From: a virus
Strand: one strand, 5' to 3'
Virus record (IMG/VR): IMGVR_UViG_3300027734_003408
Location: 1-55,848 of that record
DNA: 55,848 nucleotides
Shown here: positions 17,615 to 53,834 of the stretch, in pieces
Layout: every line of letters starts with the position of its first letter
How positions within the stretch are numbered: position 1 is the first letter of the stretch
Notes under the pieces: model-generated
Seen by the model: only the letters and a program-made list of their open reading frames with translations
The model's database searches: none
What the model was told of the DNA's origin: nothing
Position numbers and translations under genes: made by a program

Positions 17615-17983
17615 TTATTGTTGTTCTAATCGATCACGACGTCTTTTTAACAAGTCCAACACCAGATCAGACTCATCATCATCGCGGATGTCATCGCTGT
17701 CTGCACCCACATCGTTGGTGTGTTCGTGATTGGCAAAATCATCAGGATCATGCGGGTCCTGGTTGATCAACTGATTGATCACTGGACTTTCTTTGCCGCC
17801 TTGTTGTTTCAACAGCTCTATTTCTTGCTGCAAGGGCGGAACCATCACAGGTGAGTCGGGCATTTCTTCCCCGGCCGGAGCAGCAATGGTAGGCATGCCT
17901 CCACCTGCTGGGATGGTAATATTGATGGGTATGCTGATGGTCATGCCCTGTGAATTTTCTGCAATAAACTCTCGTGCTCTCAT
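17615..17983 (-). CDS. possible internal head/core protein with capsid-targeting-like N-terminus
   Basis: 122 residues from the ATG at 17983, which overlaps the upstream stop as ATGA. It begins MRAREFIAENSQ. T4 internal head proteins carry the propeptide MKTYQEFIxE, cut by the gp21 protease after an (L/I)-x-E site; EFIAE fits both the motif and the cleavage rule. The remainder is low in complexity, with a Pro/Gly-rich segment (TIPAGGGMPTIAAPAGEEMP), a short coiled-coil-like helix (LQQEIELLKQQGG), an acidic Asp/His stretch and a basic C-terminal helix (LLKRRRDRLEQQ). This suits a prohead-core or scaffold-like protein, but that is inference. Confidence 0.5.
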   Translation of the reverse strand: MRAREFIAENSQGMTISIPINITIPAGGGMPTIAAPAGEEMPDSPVMVPPLQQEIELLKQQGGKESPVINQLINQDPHDPDDFANHEHTNDVGADSDDIRDDDESDLVLDLLKRRRDRLEQQ

Positions 17984-18471
17984 AGAATACCTGCTGCCGA
18001 TTGCAACGCCCGCATGTCTGATTTGGTGTCGTGAATTGGTTTCACAGGCAAACCGGCCGCTGTGCGCCACTCGTTCAAATCTGATTCGTGTGTGCGGCGA
18101 TACTCGTCAGGTGTGAGTGGCACAGTTTGTGCAAATGCTTCTTCTGACCAGGGCTGTGTTTGACCATCGTACCGCATGGTCCAGTCTTTGGGTTCGTGTT
18201 CTGTGAGTGTGGTCAAGTCGTCTATGAGTTCGGCCACATACTGTGGTGCGGCACTGCGACGGCGCATTTCCACATACACTAGATAACGACTGGGTTTGAT
18301 TTCGCCTGGGCTACGATCAGCATCTAGCACAAAGTCATAGCCTTTTTCAAACCAGGCCACCAGGTCCTTGGCTGCTTGTTTGTCACGCACAAAAAAACTC
18401 AGCACAATAATGTCTTCATCATCGCCCATTTTGCCTGAAAATTCATCCACGTGAATGGTAGGCTTCATCAT
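17980..18471 (-). CDS. conserved phage protein of unknown function
   Basis: 163 residues from the paired ATGs at 18471, which follow AGAAGG; the frame is open further upstream, but that would overlap the preceding gene. The sequence MMKPTIHVDEFSGKMGDDED leads into IIVLSFFVRDKQAAKDLVAWFEKGYDFVLDAD, an alpha/beta fold with a strongly acidic turn. Similar proteins occur in T4-like cyanophages and relatives without a known role. It sits between the possible internal head protein and another conserved phage protein, all on one transcript. No enzyme motif is visible. Confidence 0.6.
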   Translation of the reverse strand: MMKPTIHVDEFSGKMGDDEDIIVLSFFVRDKQAAKDLVAWFEKGYDFVLDADRSPGEIKPSRYLVYVEMRRRSAAPQYVAELIDDLTTLTEHEPKDWTMRYDGQTQPWSEEAFAQTVPLTPDEYRRTHESDLNEWRTAAGLPVKPIHDTKSDMRALQSAAGIL

Positions 18472-18499
18472 GCCTTCTAGATCACGATACTGTAGCCCT

Positions 18500-19111
18500 T
18501 CAAGCAACTGGGACTGGGGCAAGGTCTTGTTCGAGGTTTTGTTGTGCATTTTCAGCCTTTGCATCACTTTGTGTGGTTTCTTTGTCTAGATCCTGCTCGT
18601 AGGCCGCGTCTAGTTCATCCAAGTCAATTTCTTGACCTTCCATTTCTATAGCGCCTGTGCGTATCTCACTCATGAGTCGTTTGGGCATGACAATTTCCAC
18701 CAGCCACACAGGTTTTTCAACTATGCGGGCTTTTTTGGTACCAGGAATGTAGTCTGCAGGATCGTTAATTTGAATGGGAATCTTGATCTTTTGTCGTTTG
18801 TATGTTACCGTGCAATCAAATGGCAGCAGTCGTTTGCCGCCTCTGGGGTCGGGCATCATTCGTTCTGGCCACATGAATGTCACACCCACTGTGTATTTGC
18901 TGATATCCGGACCGGCTACCAGTTCGCCAATTTCCCAGTTTCGAAATGCGTACACATCCATTTCGTCCAGCACACGCTCAAAGTCCAACAGTGTGGTCAG
19001 ACTGCCATCACTCATGTAGATGTCGCGGATAGTATCACTTACTTGCCAGTAATCCGCATGATCTTTAAAAAGCTCTTTGTCGTTGATGCCGTGAATGTTT
19101 TTGGTTTGCAT
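18500..19111 (-). CDS. conserved phage protein of unknown function
   Basis: 203 residues starting MQTKNIHGINDKELFKDHAD. It has a globular N-terminal two-thirds with clear strands (YTVGVTFMWPERM, LLPFDCTVTYKRQKIKIPI) and an acidic, Gln-rich tail (residues about 160-203) that looks disordered. It is the first minus-strand gene after the divergent PhoH gene. The sequence GTAAATAA sits only 6 nt ahead of the ATG, too close for a confident late promoter. I recognise it as a T4-like hypothetical protein but cannot give it a function. Confidence 0.55.
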   Translation of the reverse strand: MQTKNIHGINDKELFKDHADYWQVSDTIRDIYMSDGSLTTLLDFERVLDEMDVYAFRNWEIGELVAGPDISKYTVGVTFMWPERMMPDPRGGKRLLPFDCTVTYKRQKIKIPIQINDPADYIPGTKKARIVEKPVWLVEIVMPKRLMSEIRTGAIEMEGQEIDLDELDAAYEQDLDKETTQSDAKAENAQQNLEQDLAPVPVA

Positions 19112-32033: not shown

Positions 32034-34148
32034 TTAACAACTTCTCCAGGCACCGCCGCTGTAGATTCTAAGCGAGGGGATAACAGTGTTGTAGTAAAAT
32101 CTTCCTTCAGCTGTACTGACTGGGTCAGAGGTTCCAGTGGGTATGACCAAACTAGTCAATGAAGGCAAGCTAGTGATGTTGGATTGTGTGCCCGAGGTCA
32201 CTGTGCCGGCTGTGGTTGCATTGGTTGCATTGGTTGCATTGGTTGCATTGGTTGCATTGGTTGCATTGGTTGCGCTGGCCACAGTACCAGTGACATTGCC
32301 CCCCGGAATCGATGTTAAGCCTGCACCTGATCCAATAAATTGAGACGCTGTGACATTTCCAGTTACTGACACCGCAGTACCTTCCAATGTCCCAACCACA
32401 ATGGTACCATAACTGTTAACTGTTACTACTTCATTGGTGATAGTGGTTTGCAATGCTGCAATCAATTTATTGCTACTGGCCTGGAATCCAATAAACGCAC
32501 TACGTTCTGCGGTGTTCCAGTACCACAGTTGTTCACCACGATCTTTGGCGTCACTGCTGGTCAATGCTGCATTGTTGGCACCACGACCTATGCTGATGAT
32601 GGGATCTTGTATGGCCAAATTGGTAACATTGGTGTATTCTGTGGTACCGCTCACGGTCAAGTTACCAGCAATAATGGTGCTGCCGCCCACACTGAGTGTG
32701 CCTGCTGTGCTGATGTTGCCGCCAGTGACAGTACCTGCGGCTGTGAGTGCATTGGTACTCTTGTTGAATGTCAAGTTGGCTGTGGCATTGGCTGTGCCAG
32801 AATCATTGAACACCACTTGTGTGTTGGCACCAGGTGCTGACAAGTTGCCTGAAATATTACCAACCACATTGCCGATAAAGTTTGGTGCAGTCACATTGCC
32901 ATTAGCAGTGATTGTGCCATAGGTCAAAATATTGCCTGCTTCTACACGACCTGCCACGTTGGCCAGTCCTGAGGTAATCAAATTACCGCCAGTAACGTTG
33001 CCACTTAAACTTGCTGTGCTGCCGGTATGGGTTGTGGCATTGACGTTGGCGCCACCTAGAACGTTACCACCAGTGATGTTGCCAGTGGCACTGACTTGAC
33101 CACCAGTGCGAATATTACCACCAGTGATGTTGCCAGTGGCAGTAATAACCCCTAATGAATTAATTTGTGTGGCTATTTCAATGTTGCCGCCGGTAATGTT
33201 GGCTGCTGTGGCAATGTTTCCAAAAGCAGAAACAATGGCACCTGACGTGACATTTCCTGTGGCGCTGACTATGCCACCTGTGTTGACGTTGCCACCTGTG
33301 ACGTTGCCAGTTGCAACAATGGTTGTGCCAGCAGTGATACTGTTGCTACTAATTGAACCATTGCCGCCTAGAGCATTGCTGACATTCAAATAATTTAAAG
33401 TACCCAGTTGTTGTAAACTACTGACAGTAACGTTACTGCTCAAAGTAGAGAAAGTCAACAATGCTGCATTGGAACTTACGGCAATACCCGAAAGTTGTGA
33501 TCCATTGCCGATGAAATATTGAGTGCCAATGTTGACATTGCCAGCACCGCTGATAATGCCACCAACACTGAGTGCTCCACTGGTTATAATATTACCCCCA
33601 GTGACATTTCCTGATGCATTGACATTGCTGCCTGCATTGATGTTTGTGCCTGCAACATCGCCTGATGCAGCCACAGCACCTGTGGTGACCAAATTGCCAC
33701 CACGTACATTGCCTGTGACACTCAACGTGCCCAGTGTGCCCACTGTGGTCAAACTGCTGGTTAATACGTTGGAACTCAGTGTGTTTCCTGTAAGCAATGC
33801 TGCGGCCGCAACAGATACCACGCCAGTTAGTTGTGATCCGTTGCCAATAAAAAATTGTCCTGCTGTGACGTTGCCTACGGCTGAAATTGCGCTGTTGCCA
33901 ATCAATGTTCCTGTTACTGTGGCACCTGTGGTGGTCACAGTGATCACATTGGCAGTGCCTTGTGGGCTCATCAAGATAGCACCACTATTTAATATGTTGA
34001 TATTACTAGTGCCATTTGATATACCACTCACACCACCTGCCGCAAACAACTGACTGAAGTTGTTGTTGGTTTTGGTAAATGCAGTGCGTAAAGGATCCCC
34101 AGCGCCGTCGTTAGCAGTTGCCCCAATATTGATAATTTCTTGTGCCAT
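32034..34148 (-). CDS. repetitive tail fibre protein (704 aa)
   Basis: The N-terminus MAQEIINIGATANDGAGDPL then RTAFTKTNNNFSQLF is a conserved fibre attachment module. Residues about 75-430 are a GNVTGGNIxTxGxxS shaft like that of the giant fibres. A second recurrent module follows (TVSGTTEYTNVTNLAIQDP then SSDAKDRGEQLWYWNTAERS), known from phage fibres as a small globular insert. Near residues 625-645 there is an Ala-Thr-Asn tract from a 9-bp DNA repeat. The protein ends SDPVSTAEGRFYYNT...GGAWRSC, a common C-terminal tip strand. It is divergent from the plus-strand fibre genes. Confidence 0.8.
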   Translation of the reverse strand: MAQEIINIGATANDGAGDPLRTAFTKTNNNFSQLFAAGGVSGISNGTSNINILNSGAILMSPQGTANVITVTTTGATVTGTLIGNSAISAVGNVTAGQFFIGNGSQLTGVVSVAAAALLTGNTLSSNVLTSSLTTVGTLGTLSVTGNVRGGNLVTTGAVAASGDVAGTNINAGSNVNASGNVTGGNIITSGALSVGGIISGAGNVNIGTQYFIGNGSQLSGIAVSSNAALLTFSTLSSNVTVSSLQQLGTLNYLNVSNALGGNGSISSNSITAGTTIVATGNVTGGNVNTGGIVSATGNVTSGAIVSAFGNIATAANITGGNIEIATQINSLGVITATGNITGGNIRTGGQVSATGNITGGNVLGGANVNATTHTGSTASLSGNVTGGNLITSGLANVAGRVEAGNILTYGTITANGNVTAPNFIGNVVGNISGNLSAPGANTQVVFNDSGTANATANLTFNKSTNALTAAGTVTGGNISTAGTLSVGGSTIIAGNLTVSGTTEYTNVTNLAIQDPIISIGRGANNAALTSSDAKDRGEQLWYWNTAERSAFIGFQASSNKLIAALQTTITNEVVTVNSYGTIVVGTLEGTAVSVTGNVTASQFIGSGAGLTSIPGGNVTGTVASATNATNATNATNATNATNATTAGTVTSGTQSNITSLPSLTSLVIPTGTSDPVSTAEGRFYYNTVIPSLRIYSGGAWRSC
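32212..32274. repeat. 9-bp tandem repeat inside fibre gene
   Basis: Seven units of TTGGTTGCA (first and last with one base different) run without interruption. On the coding minus strand they give repeated Ala-Thr-Asn. Since the unit is three codons, gain or loss of copies by slippage would change fibre length without breaking the frame. Confidence 0.9.
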
Positions 34149-38600: not shown

Positions 38601-38707
38601 AGTTCGCACATGCAGTTCGAATGGATAAAGATGGGTTTTACTCTGTGGACTACAGCAAGATCAACTTTGAAATGACCAGAGCAGATACGTACTGTGTAGA
38701 AAGTTAA
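35615..38707 (+). CDS. adhesin/fibre protein with two tandem Hint domains and S74-type chaperone
   Basis: 1030 residues. The N-terminus has a Gly-rich adhesin domain ([12 protein letters not shown]), then two PA14-like beta domains (about 105-235 and 245-375), a second Gly-rich region to about 550, and a [20 protein letters not shown] repeat. Two Hint (hedgehog/intein) domains of exactly 145 residues follow: Cys639-Asn783 and Cys805-Asn949. Each starts CFVAGT(L/M)ITMADG, has MASDHPV with the block-B-type His, and ends VVHN. The residue after each HN is Lys, not Cys/Ser/Thr, so splicing is unlikely but self-cleavage is possible. Residues 951-1030 ([33 protein letters not shown]) form an S74 intramolecular chaperone, which trimerises fibres and cuts itself off. 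Confidence 0.85.
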
Positions 38708-39024
38708 ATAGAGAAACTGCTACCACATCCGCAAGTGCTTACTGCTTGCGGATTGTTGATCACAAAGCTGGCGCCCATGGCATCCTCCTTGTAATCAATT
38801 GCTGAACCTTGCAAGTATTGCATGCTCATGGCATCTATCACAATCTTGACTGAGTCGTACACAAAGTCAAAGTCATCTTCGTTTTTGGCTTCATCAAAGG
38901 TGAATCCATAACTGAATCCTGAGCATCCTCCGCCTTGCACAAACACACGTAGCATGAGATTGGGGTTGCCTTCTTCGGCCACAAGTTCTTTTAGTTTGTC
39001 AATGGCCGCTGGTTGTAGATTCAT
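38704..39024 (-). CDS. erpA: A-type iron-sulfur carrier (ErpA/IscA-like)
   Basis: 106 residues from the ATG at 39024, preceded by AAGGAAG; a longer frame overlaps the next gene and lacks similarity. The three cluster ligands are present: Cys34 in [11 protein letters not shown], and Cys98 and Cys100 in [11 protein letters not shown]. The ending is nearly that of bacterial ErpA. A-type carriers receive Fe-S clusters from a scaffold and pass them to target enzymes. In a phage it might supply clusters to its two radical SAM proteins or keep host enzymes running. It is convergent with the Hint/S74 gene, overlapping its stop by 4 bp, and is transcribed after the SOD gene. Confidence 0.9.
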
Positions 39025-39272: not shown

Positions 39273-39821
39273 TTACAGACGTTCGTTACAGACGTCCCAA
39301 TCTATTATTTTCCAGATGTTGTCTAGATAACGTTCTTTGTCCCACTGATAGTCTGTGGCCCAAACATGTTCCCACCAGTCAACCAGCACACAGATATCTG
39401 TGCGCACAGCATGGTTGGCAATGGTCTTGATGTCACCGCTAGTGCTCAAATACACCCAACCTGAGCCCTGTATCTTCATGGCAACGTCTTTGAAGGCTTC
39501 TTTGAAATCTTCGTAGGTCTTGAACTTTTCTTCAATCAAGGCCAACACAGCACCACGGGGTCTGTTGGCACCTTTAACAGGGTGCAGTTGTGGAAAGAAT
39601 TTATTGTGTAAAAAACTGCCAGCGCGATTGAAATCCGCGTTGCCTTCTCCAGCGTTGTAACGCTTGGCATAGCCCTTGGCCAAATGTTCGTAGTGATAGT
39701 TGATGCTGTCCTCACTCAGTACAGGTGCCAGATCCTTGACACCGTAAGGCAACGGAGTGGTTTCCAACTTGGCCGGTCTTGTGCTGGCTTCTACTAGATT
39801 GATGTGATTTCTCAGTTCCAT
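39273..39821 (-). CDS. sodB: Fe/Mn superoxide dismutase with capsid-targeting-like N-terminus
   Basis: 182 residues. The four metal ligands of the Fe/Mn family are visible: His43 (INYHYEH), His72 (SFLHNKFF), Asp148 and His152 (VLVDWWEHVWATDYQ). GSGWVYLS and the C-terminal RYLDNIWKIIDW also match. The gateway Tyr is kept (Tyr51), but the two His after the first ligand in E. coli SOD are replaced by Leu47 and Ala48. The outer-sphere Gln position is His137, as in mycobacterial FeSOD. The reaction is superoxide dismutation. Before the SOD fold there is an extra 20-residue leader, MELRNHINLVEAS, which looks like a T4 capsid-targeting propeptide with an L-V-E cleavage site. No good Shine-Dalgarno is seen. 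Confidence 0.85.
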   Translation of the reverse strand: MELRNHINLVEASTRPAKLETTPLPYGVKDLAPVLSEDSINYHYEHLAKGYAKRYNAGEGNADFNRAGSFLHNKFFPQLHPVKGANRPRGAVLALIEEKFKTYEDFKEAFKDVAMKIQGSGWVYLSTSGDIKTIANHAVRTDICVLVDWWEHVWATDYQWDKERYLDNIWKIIDWDVCNERL

Positions 39822-39829
39822 ACTGATAT

Positions 39830-40048
39830 TTATCTGCGTCGAGTAATACGACCACGTGTCAAATCGTAGGGCGAAAACTCCATTGCAACTCTGTCGCCCA
39901 GCAACACCTTGATGTTGTGTGTGCGCATCTTGCCCGACAAGTAGCCAATTACTTCTGTGTTGACATCATCCAGTAATACTCTAAACATGGTGTTGGGTAA
40001 AATTTCTTGAACCCGACCTTCCATGCTGATTGTTTCTTCTTTGGCCAT
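39830..40048 (-). CDS. infA: translation initiation factor IF-1
   Basis: 72 residues, exactly the bacterial length. It aligns along its whole length with proteobacterial IF-1: [48 protein letters not shown] and [16 protein letters not shown]-1 is an OB-fold protein that sits in the A site of the 30S subunit and helps IF-2 and IF-3 select the start codon. All core OB strands and the basic C-terminus are kept, so it should work. The start shares one base with the stop of the upstream unknown gene (TAATG). Phage copies are rare and could favour phage mRNAs. Confidence 0.95.
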
Positions 40049-41520: not shown

Positions 41521-42978
41521 TCACAGCCATCTTCCATCGCTGACTGCGGTGTGATCACTGTCACGCCAGACAAATTGTCCCACTCCAAAGTTCTGATTTG
41601 AGTTGTTGATCACATGACCCCGGCGTTGTAAATTTTCCCAATCAATGCCGGGCTCTACAGCAATTTCCAGCCCTTGATCGAATCGCCATCTTGGTGCGGC
41701 ACATGCGGCCTGAACACTTTGTTTGTATTTTAGCACACGAACCAGGCATTGTACATGAGCTTGCGGTTGCATGTTGCCGCCCACCACACCAAAACTCATA
41801 ATAGGTTGCCCGTTTTTAAAAACAAACGCAGGGATGATTGTGTGAAACGGACGTTGACTGGGCACAACATCGTTGACTCGGAATGCATGTCCTCGGTTCT
41901 GCAAACTGATGCCGTATGTGGGTTCTACACACCCGGATCCAAAACCGTAAGAGTTGCTTTGAATAAAACTGATCATTTGCCCGCTACTGTCTGCGGCAGT
42001 GACCATCACTGTGTCTGCAAGAACAGGATTACCTGCACCAAAATTTTGTGCATGATCAGGGTCAATCAAGGCCGCACGTTGTTGCAAATAAACAGGATCC
42101 AACAGTTGTTGCGCAGTGATTGAGGAAGGTTGAGCAATGTATTGATGCAGATCTGCAAAGGCCAGTTTGATAGCTTCTATCTGTAAGTGTGTACTGACAA
42201 CATTGTCTTCGAGATCAAAGTTTTCCAACATGCCCAAGGTCATCAATGCCGCAATGCCTTGTCCACGTGGCGGCAGTTCATACACAGTGTGGCCTTGATA
42301 ATTTTGTGAGATAGGCTGGACCCATTCAGGCCGGTAGTGCTTCAAGTCCTCTACACTCATTGCGCCGCCGTGCTGTTGAGAGAATTTGACCAATGCATCA
42401 GCAATCTCTCCTGTGTAGAATGCTTGCCCGTGTGTGCGAGCAATGACTTCAAGGCCACGTGCTATAGCAGGAAGTCGAAACGTTTCACCAGGTTGTGGCA
42501 CTCGACCACGACGAGAAAATGTTTCAACAAATCCTGGTTGCTTGTAGTATTCTCGGATATCCCAACTGCGCCGAATCTCATGTCCATTTTGTGCAAGATC
42601 AATAGCAGGTTGCATCAAGTCAGCAAAGGGCAATTGACCAAATCTAGCACTTAACACAGACCAAGCAGCCACAGCACCTGGCACTGTGACACTGTCTATG
42701 CCGCGTTGTGGCACACGTTCGATTGGGCCATGCTTGTTGACAAAATACTCAGGTGTCCAGGCAGCAGGGGCAGGTCCACTGGCATCTAGACCGTGCAGTT
42801 GACTACCATCCCATACTTGTGCAAATGCATCCGACCCTAGTCCACATCCCCAGGGCTCTACCACAGTGAGCACAGCAGCCGCGGCAATGGCAGCATCCAC
42901 AGCAGATCCACCTTGAGCAAATATCTGTTCACCGGCTCGAACAGCCAAGGGATGTGATGTGGCAATCACGTTGTTCAT
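41521..42978 (-). CDS. ggt: gamma-glutamyltransferase family protein
   Basis: 485 residues. The N-terminus ATSHPLAVRAGEQIFAQGGS then AVDAAIAAAAVLTVVEP is the classic GGT opening. The autoprocessing and catalytic Thr is Thr323 in ADTVMVTAADSSG, followed by SFIQSNSYGFGSGC and YGISLQNRG, with RPFHTIIPA and FGVVGGNMQPQ at the oxyanion region. GGTs are N-terminal nucleophile hydrolases that cut themselves and transfer or hydrolyse gamma-glutamyl groups of glutathione-like compounds. There is no signal peptide, so this one should be cytoplasmic. It lies in a phage operon (start overlaps the previous stop as ATGA). A role in gamma-glutamyl breakdown or modification is inferred. Confidence 0.9.
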   Translation of the reverse strand: MNNVIATSHPLAVRAGEQIFAQGGSAVDAAIAAAAVLTVVEPWGCGLGSDAFAQVWDGSQLHGLDASGPAPAAWTPEYFVNKHGPIERVPQRGIDSVTVPGAVAAWSVLSARFGQLPFADLMQPAIDLAQNGHEIRRSWDIREYYKQPGFVETFSRRGRVPQPGETFRLPAIARGLEVIARTHGQAFYTGEIADALVKFSQQHGGAMSVEDLKHYRPEWVQPISQNYQGHTVYELPPRGQGIAALMTLGMLENFDLEDNVVSTHLQIEAIKLAFADLHQYIAQPSSITAQQLLDPVYLQQRAALIDPDHAQNFGAGNPVLADTVMVTAADSSGQMISFIQSNSYGFGSGCVEPTYGISLQNRGHAFRVNDVVPSQRPFHTIIPAFVFKNGQPIMSFGVVGGNMQPQAHVQCLVRVLKYKQSVQAACAAPRWRFDQGLEIAVEPGIDWENLQRRGHVINNSNQNFGVGQFVWRDSDHTAVSDGRWL

Positions 42979-45480: not shown

Positions 45481-46254
45481 TTAATGAGGGATTTCACAAA
45501 CAGGGATAGGTGTCATCTTGTGCAGGTTTCTTGCACGTATCTCGCGATAACGTTTCAGCAATCGCTTTTCTGGTGCAGTGGCATACTCGCGAATGCCTGA
45601 ATAAGTGTCTTGCAACATGGCCTTTTCCAGTTCAGGATAAGTCATGCCCAGCTGATCTTCATCGTTGCGACCATCAGCCCAGAGTCCGTCTGTGGGCGGC
45701 GCATCAATAATTTCCTTCAGCAAACCCAGTTCCCGGCCCATGTCCCATACTTCGGTTTTCATGCAGTCACCAATGGGCGAAATATCCACACCACCATCGC
45801 CGTACTTGGTAAAGAATCCCACGCCAAAGTCCTCCACTCGATTGCCTGTGCCCACCACAATGCCACCATGACTTTGTGCAATTTGATACAGCGTCATCAT
45901 TCTCAATCTAGCACGACTATTGGCAAATGCTAATTCTGAGTCACCAAATGGTCCAACCTTTTTCTCAAATGCTGAGAACACCGGGGTCAAATCCATGCTC
46001 ATGTGTGTGACATTGTTGGGGTGCTGTTCCAGCAACCAGCCAGCCTGTGCTGAACTTAGATTGTCCAGTTTGCGGTTCTGGCGAATGGGCATTTGCACCA
46101 CAATGGTTTTCAAGCCAGTTTGGGCGCACAAGGCACTCACAACTGAACTGTCAATCCCGCCCGAAATGCCCACTACTAGAGTGTCTACGCCAGCCTTGCG
46201 GGCATAGTCTCGGATCCATTTGTTAATGTGTTTGATACGTTGTTTGGGTGTCAT
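45481..46254 (-). CDS. nadE: NAD+ synthetase (ammonia-dependent type)
   Basis: 257 residues. The PP-loop SGGIDSS (31-37) after LVVGI is intact. NSRARLRMMTLYQIA, VVGTGNRVEDFGVGFFTKYG and DGGVDISPIGDCMKTEVW match the deamido-NAD and ATP-binding core, and APPTDGLWADGRNDEDQLG the conserved loop. The enzyme adenylates nicotinic acid adenine dinucleotide and amidates it with ammonia to NAD+. There is no glutaminase domain. Phage copies could keep NAD high during infection. It overlaps the next upstream gene's region by 4 bp (46251-46254), so it is coupled to a phage gene. Confidence 0.93.
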   Translation of the reverse strand: MTPKQRIKHINKWIRDYARKAGVDTLVVGISGGIDSSVVSALCAQTGLKTIVVQMPIRQNRKLDNLSSAQAGWLLEQHPNNVTHMSMDLTPVFSAFEKKVGPFGDSELAFANSRARLRMMTLYQIAQSHGGIVVGTGNRVEDFGVGFFTKYGDGGVDISPIGDCMKTEVWDMGRELGLLKEIIDAPPTDGLWADGRNDEDQLGMTYPELEKAMLQDTYSGIREYATAPEKRLLKRYREIRARNLHKMTPIPVCEIPH

Positions 46255-52442: not shown

Positions 52443-53834
52443 CTACTTGAGTATTACCGGGCAACGGGGCATGGAAAACTGATGTTCTATGGCCTGGGCC
52501 ACTTGTAACACCCTCACATCATCATGCATGGCCCCGGTAATCATCACTGCCAACGGAACAAAGTTGGAATTTAATCCTATTGGTATAGTCAACGTGGGTT
52601 GTTTGGTGGTTGAAAACAATACGGACCAGGGAGAAATTAATATTTTTTTATTTTCTAATGTTATCTCATCAACTGCAATTTGATCTGGGGTAACTGTGGT
52701 TGCCGGAGAAATTATTACGTCATACATTTGCATGAATTTACGCATTTTGATTACAGCATCTTTACATTGTTCAAGCCAATGATATAGGTCCACTTTGGCG
52801 TGAGAACATATAGATATTTGTTGAAATTCGCGACCAACTAGATGTTGTTTATCAACTGAAATATTTTGCCATTGTTGTAATACTGCCGGTGTTTGTAATT
52901 GTGACAATACTTGTGGTGAATTTTTTATATCAATGTCGACCAATTCGACCACGGCACCCTGAGAAGACAACCAACTGATCACCTGGTCAACTGCTGATAA
53001 AATCTCCAAGTTAACCTGTTGATCGTCAATTGTTTGACAATAAGCCACCCTCAACCCATTCAATGTAGTTGGCGTTTGTTGCGTGTAGTCAACATGATTG
53101 TATGGCAAAGATGCCCAGTCTCTAACGTCTGGCAAAGATATTGTATTCAAGATCAATGCTAAATCTGCTGTTGATCTTGACATTGGCCCCACTGTACCAA
53201 GATGAAATACGCCACCGGGATATTGAGGTACTCTTCCACAACTGGGTTTCAACCCAACAATGCCACAAAACGCTGACGGCACAGCAATGCTCCCACCCAC
53301 GTCACTGGCTATTGCCAATGGGACTATGCCAGCAGCCACTGCCACAGCCGACCCACCTGAACTGCCGCCTGGTGTGTGTTTAATGCCCCATGGATTACGT
53401 ACTACGCCGTGTATTTTTGAATTTGAATGGCTGCCACCGCTACTGTTGAATTCTGGAACAGTGGTTTTGCCCACAAACACTGCACCAGCTTCACGCAATC
53501 GTGCCACTGCAGGCGCATCTTCCGGCCATGGTTGATTGGCATCAATTGCAAGGCTGCCCTGTAAGGTGGGCCATCCTTGTGTGAGTATCGAGTCTTTGAC
53601 AGCCACTGGCACCCCATCCAACCGGCTCAATGGTTGGCCTTGACGCCAGCGTTGAGCACTGGCCCGGGCCTGTGCCAGCGTGGTCTCAGGGTCTGTGAAA
53701 CAAAATGCATTGATCACAGGATTCAATCGCTCAATCTTGGCCAGCACCTGTTCGGCCACAGTCACAGGACTTGCCGCACCAGATCGGTATAAACTGCATA
53801 ACTCTGCGGCAGTGGCCTGTGTGAAGTCTGTCAT
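52443..53834 (-). CDS. amidase signature (AS) family hydrolase
   Basis: 463 residues. The complete Ser-cisSer-Lys triad of the AS family is visible: Lys80 in GVPVAVKDS, cis-Ser159 in TPGGSSGGSAVAVAAG, and nucleophile Ser182 in SDVGGSIAVPSAFCG. The surrounding GLKPSCGRVPQYPG and GPMSRSTADLALIL are also typical. AS enzymes hydrolyse amides; relatives include GatA, allophanate hydrolase and fatty-acid amide hydrolases. The GatB/GatC partners are not seen and the C-terminal third is AT-richer and less conserved, so this is a stand-alone hydrolase of unknown substrate. The start overlaps the previous stop by 4 bp (ATGA). Confidence 0.9.
   Translation of the reverse strand: MTDFTQATAAELCSLYRSGAASPVTVAEQVLAKIERLNPVINAFCFTDPETTLAQARASAQRWRQGQPLSRLDGVPVAVKDSILTQGWPTLQGSLAIDANQPWPEDAPAVARLREAGAVFVGKTTVPEFNSSGGSHSNSKIHGVVRNPWGIKHTPGGSSGGSAVAVAAGIVPLAIASDVGGSIAVPSAFCGIVGLKPSCGRVPQYPGGVFHLGTVGPMSRSTADLALILNTISLPDVRDWASLPYNHVDYTQQTPTTLNGLRVAYCQTIDDQQVNLEILSAVDQVISWLSSQGAVVELVDIDIKNSPQVLSQLQTPAVLQQWQNISVDKQHLVGREFQQISICSHAKVDLYHWLEQCKDAVIKMRKFMQMYDVIISPATTVTPDQIAVDEITLENKKILISPWSVLFSTTKQPTLTIPIGLNSNFVPLAVMITGAMHDDVRVLQVAQAIEHQFSMPRCPVILK

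Follow-up and report, generated by a model that had tools for sequence, protein, structure and literature searches.

We have found that a lineage of giant freshwater phages related to T4 encodes an Fe/Mn superoxide dismutase (SOD) with a short additional N-terminal leader, and the sequence features of this leader suggest that the enzyme is probably packaged in the phage head, with the leader acting as a capsid-targeting propeptide. The DNA analysed here (the window) is a 55.8-kb IMG/VR fragment from this T4-related jumbo phage lineage, the order of many of its proteins is matched by homologues in relatives of 320–364 kb, and close relatives of the SOD are situated in many contigs larger than 200 kb. 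In the model that we favor, SOD with intact metal ligands would be synthesized at a late stage of infection, an amphipathic peptide formed by its first 11 residues, with Leu-Val-Glu at the end, would bring it into the prohead core, and an S77 (gp21-type) prohead protease would cut it after Glu11, leaving a 171-residue SOD starting ASTRPAKLETT inside the mature head. The packaged enzyme would most likely be ejected with the DNA, and could then remove superoxide during early infection, protect the packaged DNA, or both. We infer targeting, cleavage, location in the head, ejection and benefit alike, and we regard ejection to the benefit of the phage as an evenly balanced proposition.

The phage SOD and its N-terminal extension

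The gene, its leader and the predicted cleavage site are as follows, with a slash marking the predicted cut here and below.

39273–39821, minus strand: Fe/Mn superoxide dismutase gene, 182 aa (translation, Pfam PF02777, AlphaFold2/Foldseek fold, IMG/VR copies)
39789–39821, minus strand: leader codons, residues 1–11 (MELRNHINLVE), a proposed capsid-targeting propeptide, absent in cellular SODs and with (L/I)xE kept
39786–39791, minus strand: predicted S77/gp21-type cleavage site E11/A12 (LVE/AS), from E11 conservation, the capsid-protein site in relatives and the T4 rule

The open reading frame has an ATG start and encodes a protein beginning MELRNHINLVEASTRPAKLETTPLPYG, which as judged by profile, structural model and fold search is an Fe/Mn superoxide dismutase. 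It matches the Pfam profile Sod_Fe_C (PF02777) with E=5e-20, and Sod_Fe_N with E=1.3e-5, slightly short of the profile cut-off. An AlphaFold2 model using an alignment of 53 homologues has a mean pLDDT of 92, superseding a single-sequence run with a pLDDT of 45, and the top matches to the model in a Foldseek search of the PDB are Fe/Mn SODs. The three histidines and one aspartate that the first-pass annotation had read as intact metal ligands (His43, His72, Asp148 and His152) are all present and are invariant in alignments of 53–55 diverse phage SODs, and the best 80 IMG/VR loci contain copies at 82–94% identity. Bacterial Fe/Mn SODs (SodB/SodA) share the fold and the ligands, with ~23–30% identity between the phage protein and solved structures, whereas the N-terminal leader, a shorter N-terminal helical hairpin and a sequence type of its own (182 aa) are features of the phage enzymes.

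The same annotation had described the N-terminus as extra relative to bacterial SODs, and comparison with both solved and genomic cellular SODs bears this out, with about 15 additional residues in the phage proteins and the rest of the enzyme complete. Position 19–20 of the phage-family profile aligns with residue 4–6 of solved SODs, the E. coli FeSOD among them, and the number of residues ahead of the conserved LPY tyrosine has a median of 25 in phage SODs versus 12 in 61 cellular SODs, the latter counted from the first ATG of the frame such that signal peptides or over-extended starts are counted in some of them. In many cellular SODs, just 8–9 residues precede this tyrosine. In the AlphaFold2 model, the leader is a short low-confidence helix (residues 4–12) lying outside the fold.

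Conservation of the (L/I)xE site

T4 gp21 cleaves on the C-terminal side of L/I-X-E, and ten N-terminal residues of T4 IPIII are enough for packaging (PMC9026906). For IPIII, replacing the Glu at the site by Asp is reported to prevent cleavage while packaging still occurs. L-V-E at residues 9–11 of the window SOD fits this rule, as had been pointed out in the first reading of the DNA. A total of 226 phage SODs were gathered from three scans of viral contigs and from phage records, and leader statistics were calculated on the 55 that are non-redundant at 80%. The (L/I)xE motif is present in 51 of these 55 leaders, far above the mean of 15.9 and the maximum of 27 in 1000 shuffles, and in three of 61 cellular SODs, a difference for which the Fisher p value of 3e-24 is merely indicative since the sequences are related. 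An unconserved leader or one without an LxE site, which had been named as the outcome that would speak against packaging, is thus not what the homologues present.

The site is retained within a leader that otherwise changes rapidly. Conservation of residue E11 is 90% or higher across 53–55 homologues while the remainder of the leader turns over, and mean pairwise identity among the 55 sequences is 19% in the leader (Met and Glu excluded) versus 58% in the SOD body. Parsimony, applied to a partly resolved tree, gives at least 16 changes of leader type. At the site itself, P3 is Leu or Ile in 84 of 86 cases, and P1’ is mostly Ala, Gly or Ser. One phage homologue (L258) has no N-terminal leader, and the reading of another (L201) is short and doubtful. 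A further homologue without an N-terminal leader is in Vibrio phage 2.275.O.

34051–34620 of MG592671, plus strand: Vibrio phage 2.275.O SOD, possibly tagged at the C-terminus

This protein has a C-terminal tail, MLDE/SVNIRHLINFISK, containing an LxE site. The C-terminus of T4 Alt is also processed (PMC9026906), and by this analogy the tag of the 2.275.O SOD may have been relocated to the C-terminus, a suggestion based on one sequence. In the same phage, a KTSC-domain protein encoded two genes upstream of the SOD (32972–33505, plus strand) has a SOD-like leader, MFTIRHFIDVMNE/A.

Prohead protease, capsid proteins and other leaders

A protease of the S77 (gp21) type is encoded by PA5oct, by Vibrio phage 2.275.O and by 10 of 13 sizeable relatives, as well as by four (G014, G015, G017 and G022) of 15 further, mostly fragmentary contigs. 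The gene is absent from the 55.8-kb window and from several of the relative contigs, possibly because these are fragments. The major capsid proteins of eight genomes contain L-x-E followed by N or S in the region corresponding to the T4 gp23 cut, as matched in an alignment by eye. A comparison with the consensus of the gp21-type protease had been recommended, and when run in the relatives it reveals an L-x-E site in the capsid proteins as in the SOD leader.

Several homologous SODs have leaders of a T4-like form, MKLNDFLIE/A in L252, MKVNDFLTE/A in L257 and MKLHDFLTE/D in L253, for comparison with MKTYQEFIAE/A in T4 IPII and IPIII. A T4-type leader is also found on another protein of the window.

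17615–17983, minus strand: small protein with the T4-type leader MRAREFIAE/NSQ, adjoining genes that match phage head-protein families

For the adjoining genes (17980–18567 and 18500–19111), the PHROG matches are to families of the class ‘head and packaging, virion structural protein’. The leader of the window SOD, MELRNHINLVE, has no similarity to the MRAxEF[IL]xE leaders of the same genomes beyond the rule and a hydrophobic pattern, and it is not matched by a strict T4-like regular expression; we therefore do not claim membership by leader sequence. The original proposal, in which the leader is a capsid-targeting propeptide of the T4 type and is removed by a gp21-type protease, is supported in part. 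Retention of the site despite leader turnover, the S77 protease and capsid L-x-E in relatives, the T4-like leaders of some SODs and the leader-bearing neighbours all argue for it; the leader of the window SOD itself is not of the MKxxxEFxxE form.

Within these genomes, tag-like leaders favor true N-termini, being present in 29 of 3529 genes versus 12 of 13705 internal methionines, and for the MK(I/L)x(D/E) forms the counts are 25 of 3529 and one of 13705, respectively. In G014, six of the seven genes with MK(I/L)x(D/E) leaders, including that of the SOD, lie within a 16-kb stretch. A 523-aa protein of G010 (71762–73333, plus strand) has the SOD-type leader MRNLINLIE/A and is homologous to the 1693-aa neighbor of the G014 SOD.

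We also note that CTS-like leaders, MRNLINLIE/A and MRDLLDLLKLYE/A among them, are present on a group of large proteins comprising this G010 protein and those at G014 195495–200576 (minus strand), G006 266090–267349 (plus strand) and G009 336229–337674 (minus strand), which are candidates for injected effectors. No Pfam or PHROG match was obtained for three proteins with SOD-like leaders (523, 481 and 419 aa), and the two of them searched against the PDB gave no match. Two very small proteins, at G017 172655–172864 (minus strand) and G009 62030–62230 (plus strand), are made up of a CTS-like leader and, directly after it, the mature N-terminal sequence of the capsid protein in copy (MKIREIVE/SATAGATSAGNVA in G017 and MRAQEFIKE/NASVGATSSGSVAT in G009). 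Because the part after the leader is the sequence that follows the capsid protein site, these small proteins provide independent support for cleavage of such leaders at that point.

Neighboring genes and a possible role inside the cell

Several host-like genes surround the SOD, as follows.

38704–39024, minus strand: ErpA-type Fe-S carrier gene, downstream of the SOD (NCBIfam NF010147, E=1.8e-47, residues 2–106)
39830–40048, minus strand: IF-1-like gene, upstream of the SOD (NCBIfam TIGR00008, E=2.3e-28)
41521–42978, minus strand: gamma-glutamyltransferase-like gene, host-like
45481–46254, minus strand: NAD+ synthase gene, host-like
52443–53834, minus strand: amidase gene, host-like

ErpA adjoins the SOD in G006, G009 and G010 as it does in the window, an IF-1-like gene is near the SOD in the same three genomes, and in G017 there are IscU/IscA-like genes beside it, the names being our reading of the sequences. 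The conservation of ErpA as a neighbor hints at a relevance of Fe-S damage, and fits equally well with a SOD that acts only inside the cell. Such a SOD would function as an auxiliary metabolic enzyme beside ErpA in the infected cell, with the N-terminal helix as a docking or localization peptide and the Glu kept for binding; the conserved gene neighborhood, the modelling of the leader as a helix, and the clear cytoplasmic enzymes in the mass spectrometry list of PA5oct (see below) are all compatible with this. However, a docking peptide should keep its contact residues, whereas all of the leader except (L/I)xE and the hydrophobic pattern turns over, and the motif that is retained is the rule of the capsid protease, in leaders some of which resemble T4 tags. 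ErpA, which serves as an internal control, and the IF-1-like protein are moreover without any extension of this kind. We consider a purely intracellular role unlikely, and favor packaging in the head.

Virion evidence from PA5oct

The PA5oct/MIJ3-type jumbo phages (Arenbergviridae) have a homologous SOD, with ~37% identity to that of the window, whose different leader also ends in (I)xE, and their portal, scaffold, S77 protease and capsid proteins are homologous to those of the lineage described here. The PA5oct SOD (EST35_0261) has the leader MNDSIKKYISIAE/A, with a predicted cut after E13 that would leave a protein beginning AASSVKK, and its GenBank record carries the note ESI-MS/MS; according to the companion paper, structural proteomics was done on PA5oct (PMC6950013). 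The same mark is given to ribonucleotide reductase, thymidylate synthase, DNA ligase, FtsH and ClpP, and the SOD is labelled ‘hypothetical’ and not ‘structural’, such that co-purification or contamination could account for its detection. The mark supports packaging of the SOD, short of proof.

The leader rule by itself does not predict the virion list of PA5oct, in that generic (L/I)xE expressions applied to the N-termini show no significant enrichment among the MS-detected proteins (15/90 versus 59/387, p=0.42), and a stricter expression gives p=0.07. A tighter leader pattern is found in six of 90 MS-detected proteins and one of 380 others (p=2.5e-4), an exploratory result since the pattern was shaped after the list had been seen.

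It could also be envisaged that the SOD is in the virion without being ejected head cargo, either as a tail, neck or surface component with a trimmed propeptide, or as a passenger trapped at head assembly. The leader-like N-termini on various MS-detected PA5oct proteins, whose place in the virion is unassigned, would accommodate this, as would the leader-bearing family of G010 155904, which has a PA5oct homologue termed ‘structural protein’ without an assigned place. However, T4 gp21 acts on head proteins, and it is by their short propeptides that the internal proteins are brought into the T4 prohead (PMC9026906), and we find a location outside the head cargo very improbable.

Predicted late transcription and the start codon

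A putative late promoter of the TATAAATA-like type is situated immediately upstream of the SOD.

39827–39834, minus strand: motif GATAAATA of a T4-type late promoter, its end 5 nt upstream of the SOD ATG, which has no Shine-Dalgarno sequence

TAAATA is present within 40 nt upstream of 62 of 87 non-redundant phage SOD genes, and in 57 of these it is 4–5 nt from the ATG. The SOD mRNA is predicted from this motif to be both late and leaderless. That the leader is never made because the true start codon is further downstream might be argued from the lack of a Shine-Dalgarno sequence at this ATG, but such an artefact of annotation is extremely improbable and a downstream start was rejected, because the motif is 5 nt upstream in the window and 4–5 nt upstream in 57 of the 87 homologues, as a leaderless mRNA would need, and E11 and its cleavage-site context are conserved.

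As an observation on the lineage at large, TAAATA has a bimodal placement before start codons in the window, G006, G009, G010, G012 and G017, at either 4–7 nt (148 cases) or 15–25 nt, and SD-like sequences accompany 6 of 160 in a 3–8 nt class versus 106 of 131 in the 15–25 nt class. TATAAT has a comparable peak 6 nt before start codons. The 4–7 nt class of TAAATA leads us to predict many leaderless late mRNAs in the lineage; the corresponding peak is absent from PA5oct and Vibrio phage 2.275.O.

Relationship to known systems and implications

A close parallel is with T4 IPI, IPII and IPIII (CTS MKTYQEFIAE, cut by gp21), whose short N-terminal leader, like that of the phage SODs, has (L/I)xE at its end, and the S77 protease, T4-like head genes and other leader-bearing proteins are likewise found in the relatives. 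The systems differ in that the cargo here is an ordinary and widespread metal enzyme, the window leader departs from the MKxxxEFxxE form, and targeting and cleavage are proposed from sequence. In phages of the phiKZ/SPN3US type, too, a gp21-type protease, gp175/gp245, cleaves propeptides from head cargo after Glu (PMC9026906, PMC5694885), although several of these exceed 100 residues and the phiKZ rule is S/A-X-E, in contrast to the T4-like L-x-E of this lineage.

A literature search found no paper connecting SODs of phages with either prohead proteases or capsid targeting. We found no report of a packaged SOD in a tailed phage, and the nearest precedent is the Cu/Zn SOD (A245R) of chlorovirus PBCV-1, a late product that is packaged into virions; PBCV-1 infection is accompanied by less superoxide than infection with a chlorovirus lacking the SOD gene (PMC7019647). 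That enzyme is unrelated to the phage SOD in fold and metal, and belongs to a virus of eukaryotic algae. To our knowledge, no capsid-targeting propeptide is involved in its packaging. By analogy, an Fe/Mn SOD in a phage head could act at entry as the PBCV-1 enzyme does, or protect DNA in the particles.

At its broadest, our proposal is that a large family of T4-related jumbo phages packs active SOD by a swappable propeptide, mostly N-terminal and apparently C-terminal in 2.275.O, and that the enzyme is injected alongside the genome, quenching superoxide at entry, as one of a set of leader-tagged effectors that can be read by (L/I)xE; we would give this general form about the same chance of being right as wrong. 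If true, these would be the first tailed phages, as far as we have found, with an antioxidant enzyme in the capsid, in parallel with the unrelated SOD of chloroviruses. A packaged SOD would suggest that superoxide endangers phages as they enter, or the DNA inside virions, and the question of whether an auxiliary metabolic gene product is produced by the infected cell or brought in by the particle would become a test on a single peptide. The (L/I)xE rule would then offer a means of listing packaged cargo in uncultured jumbo phages from their sequences.
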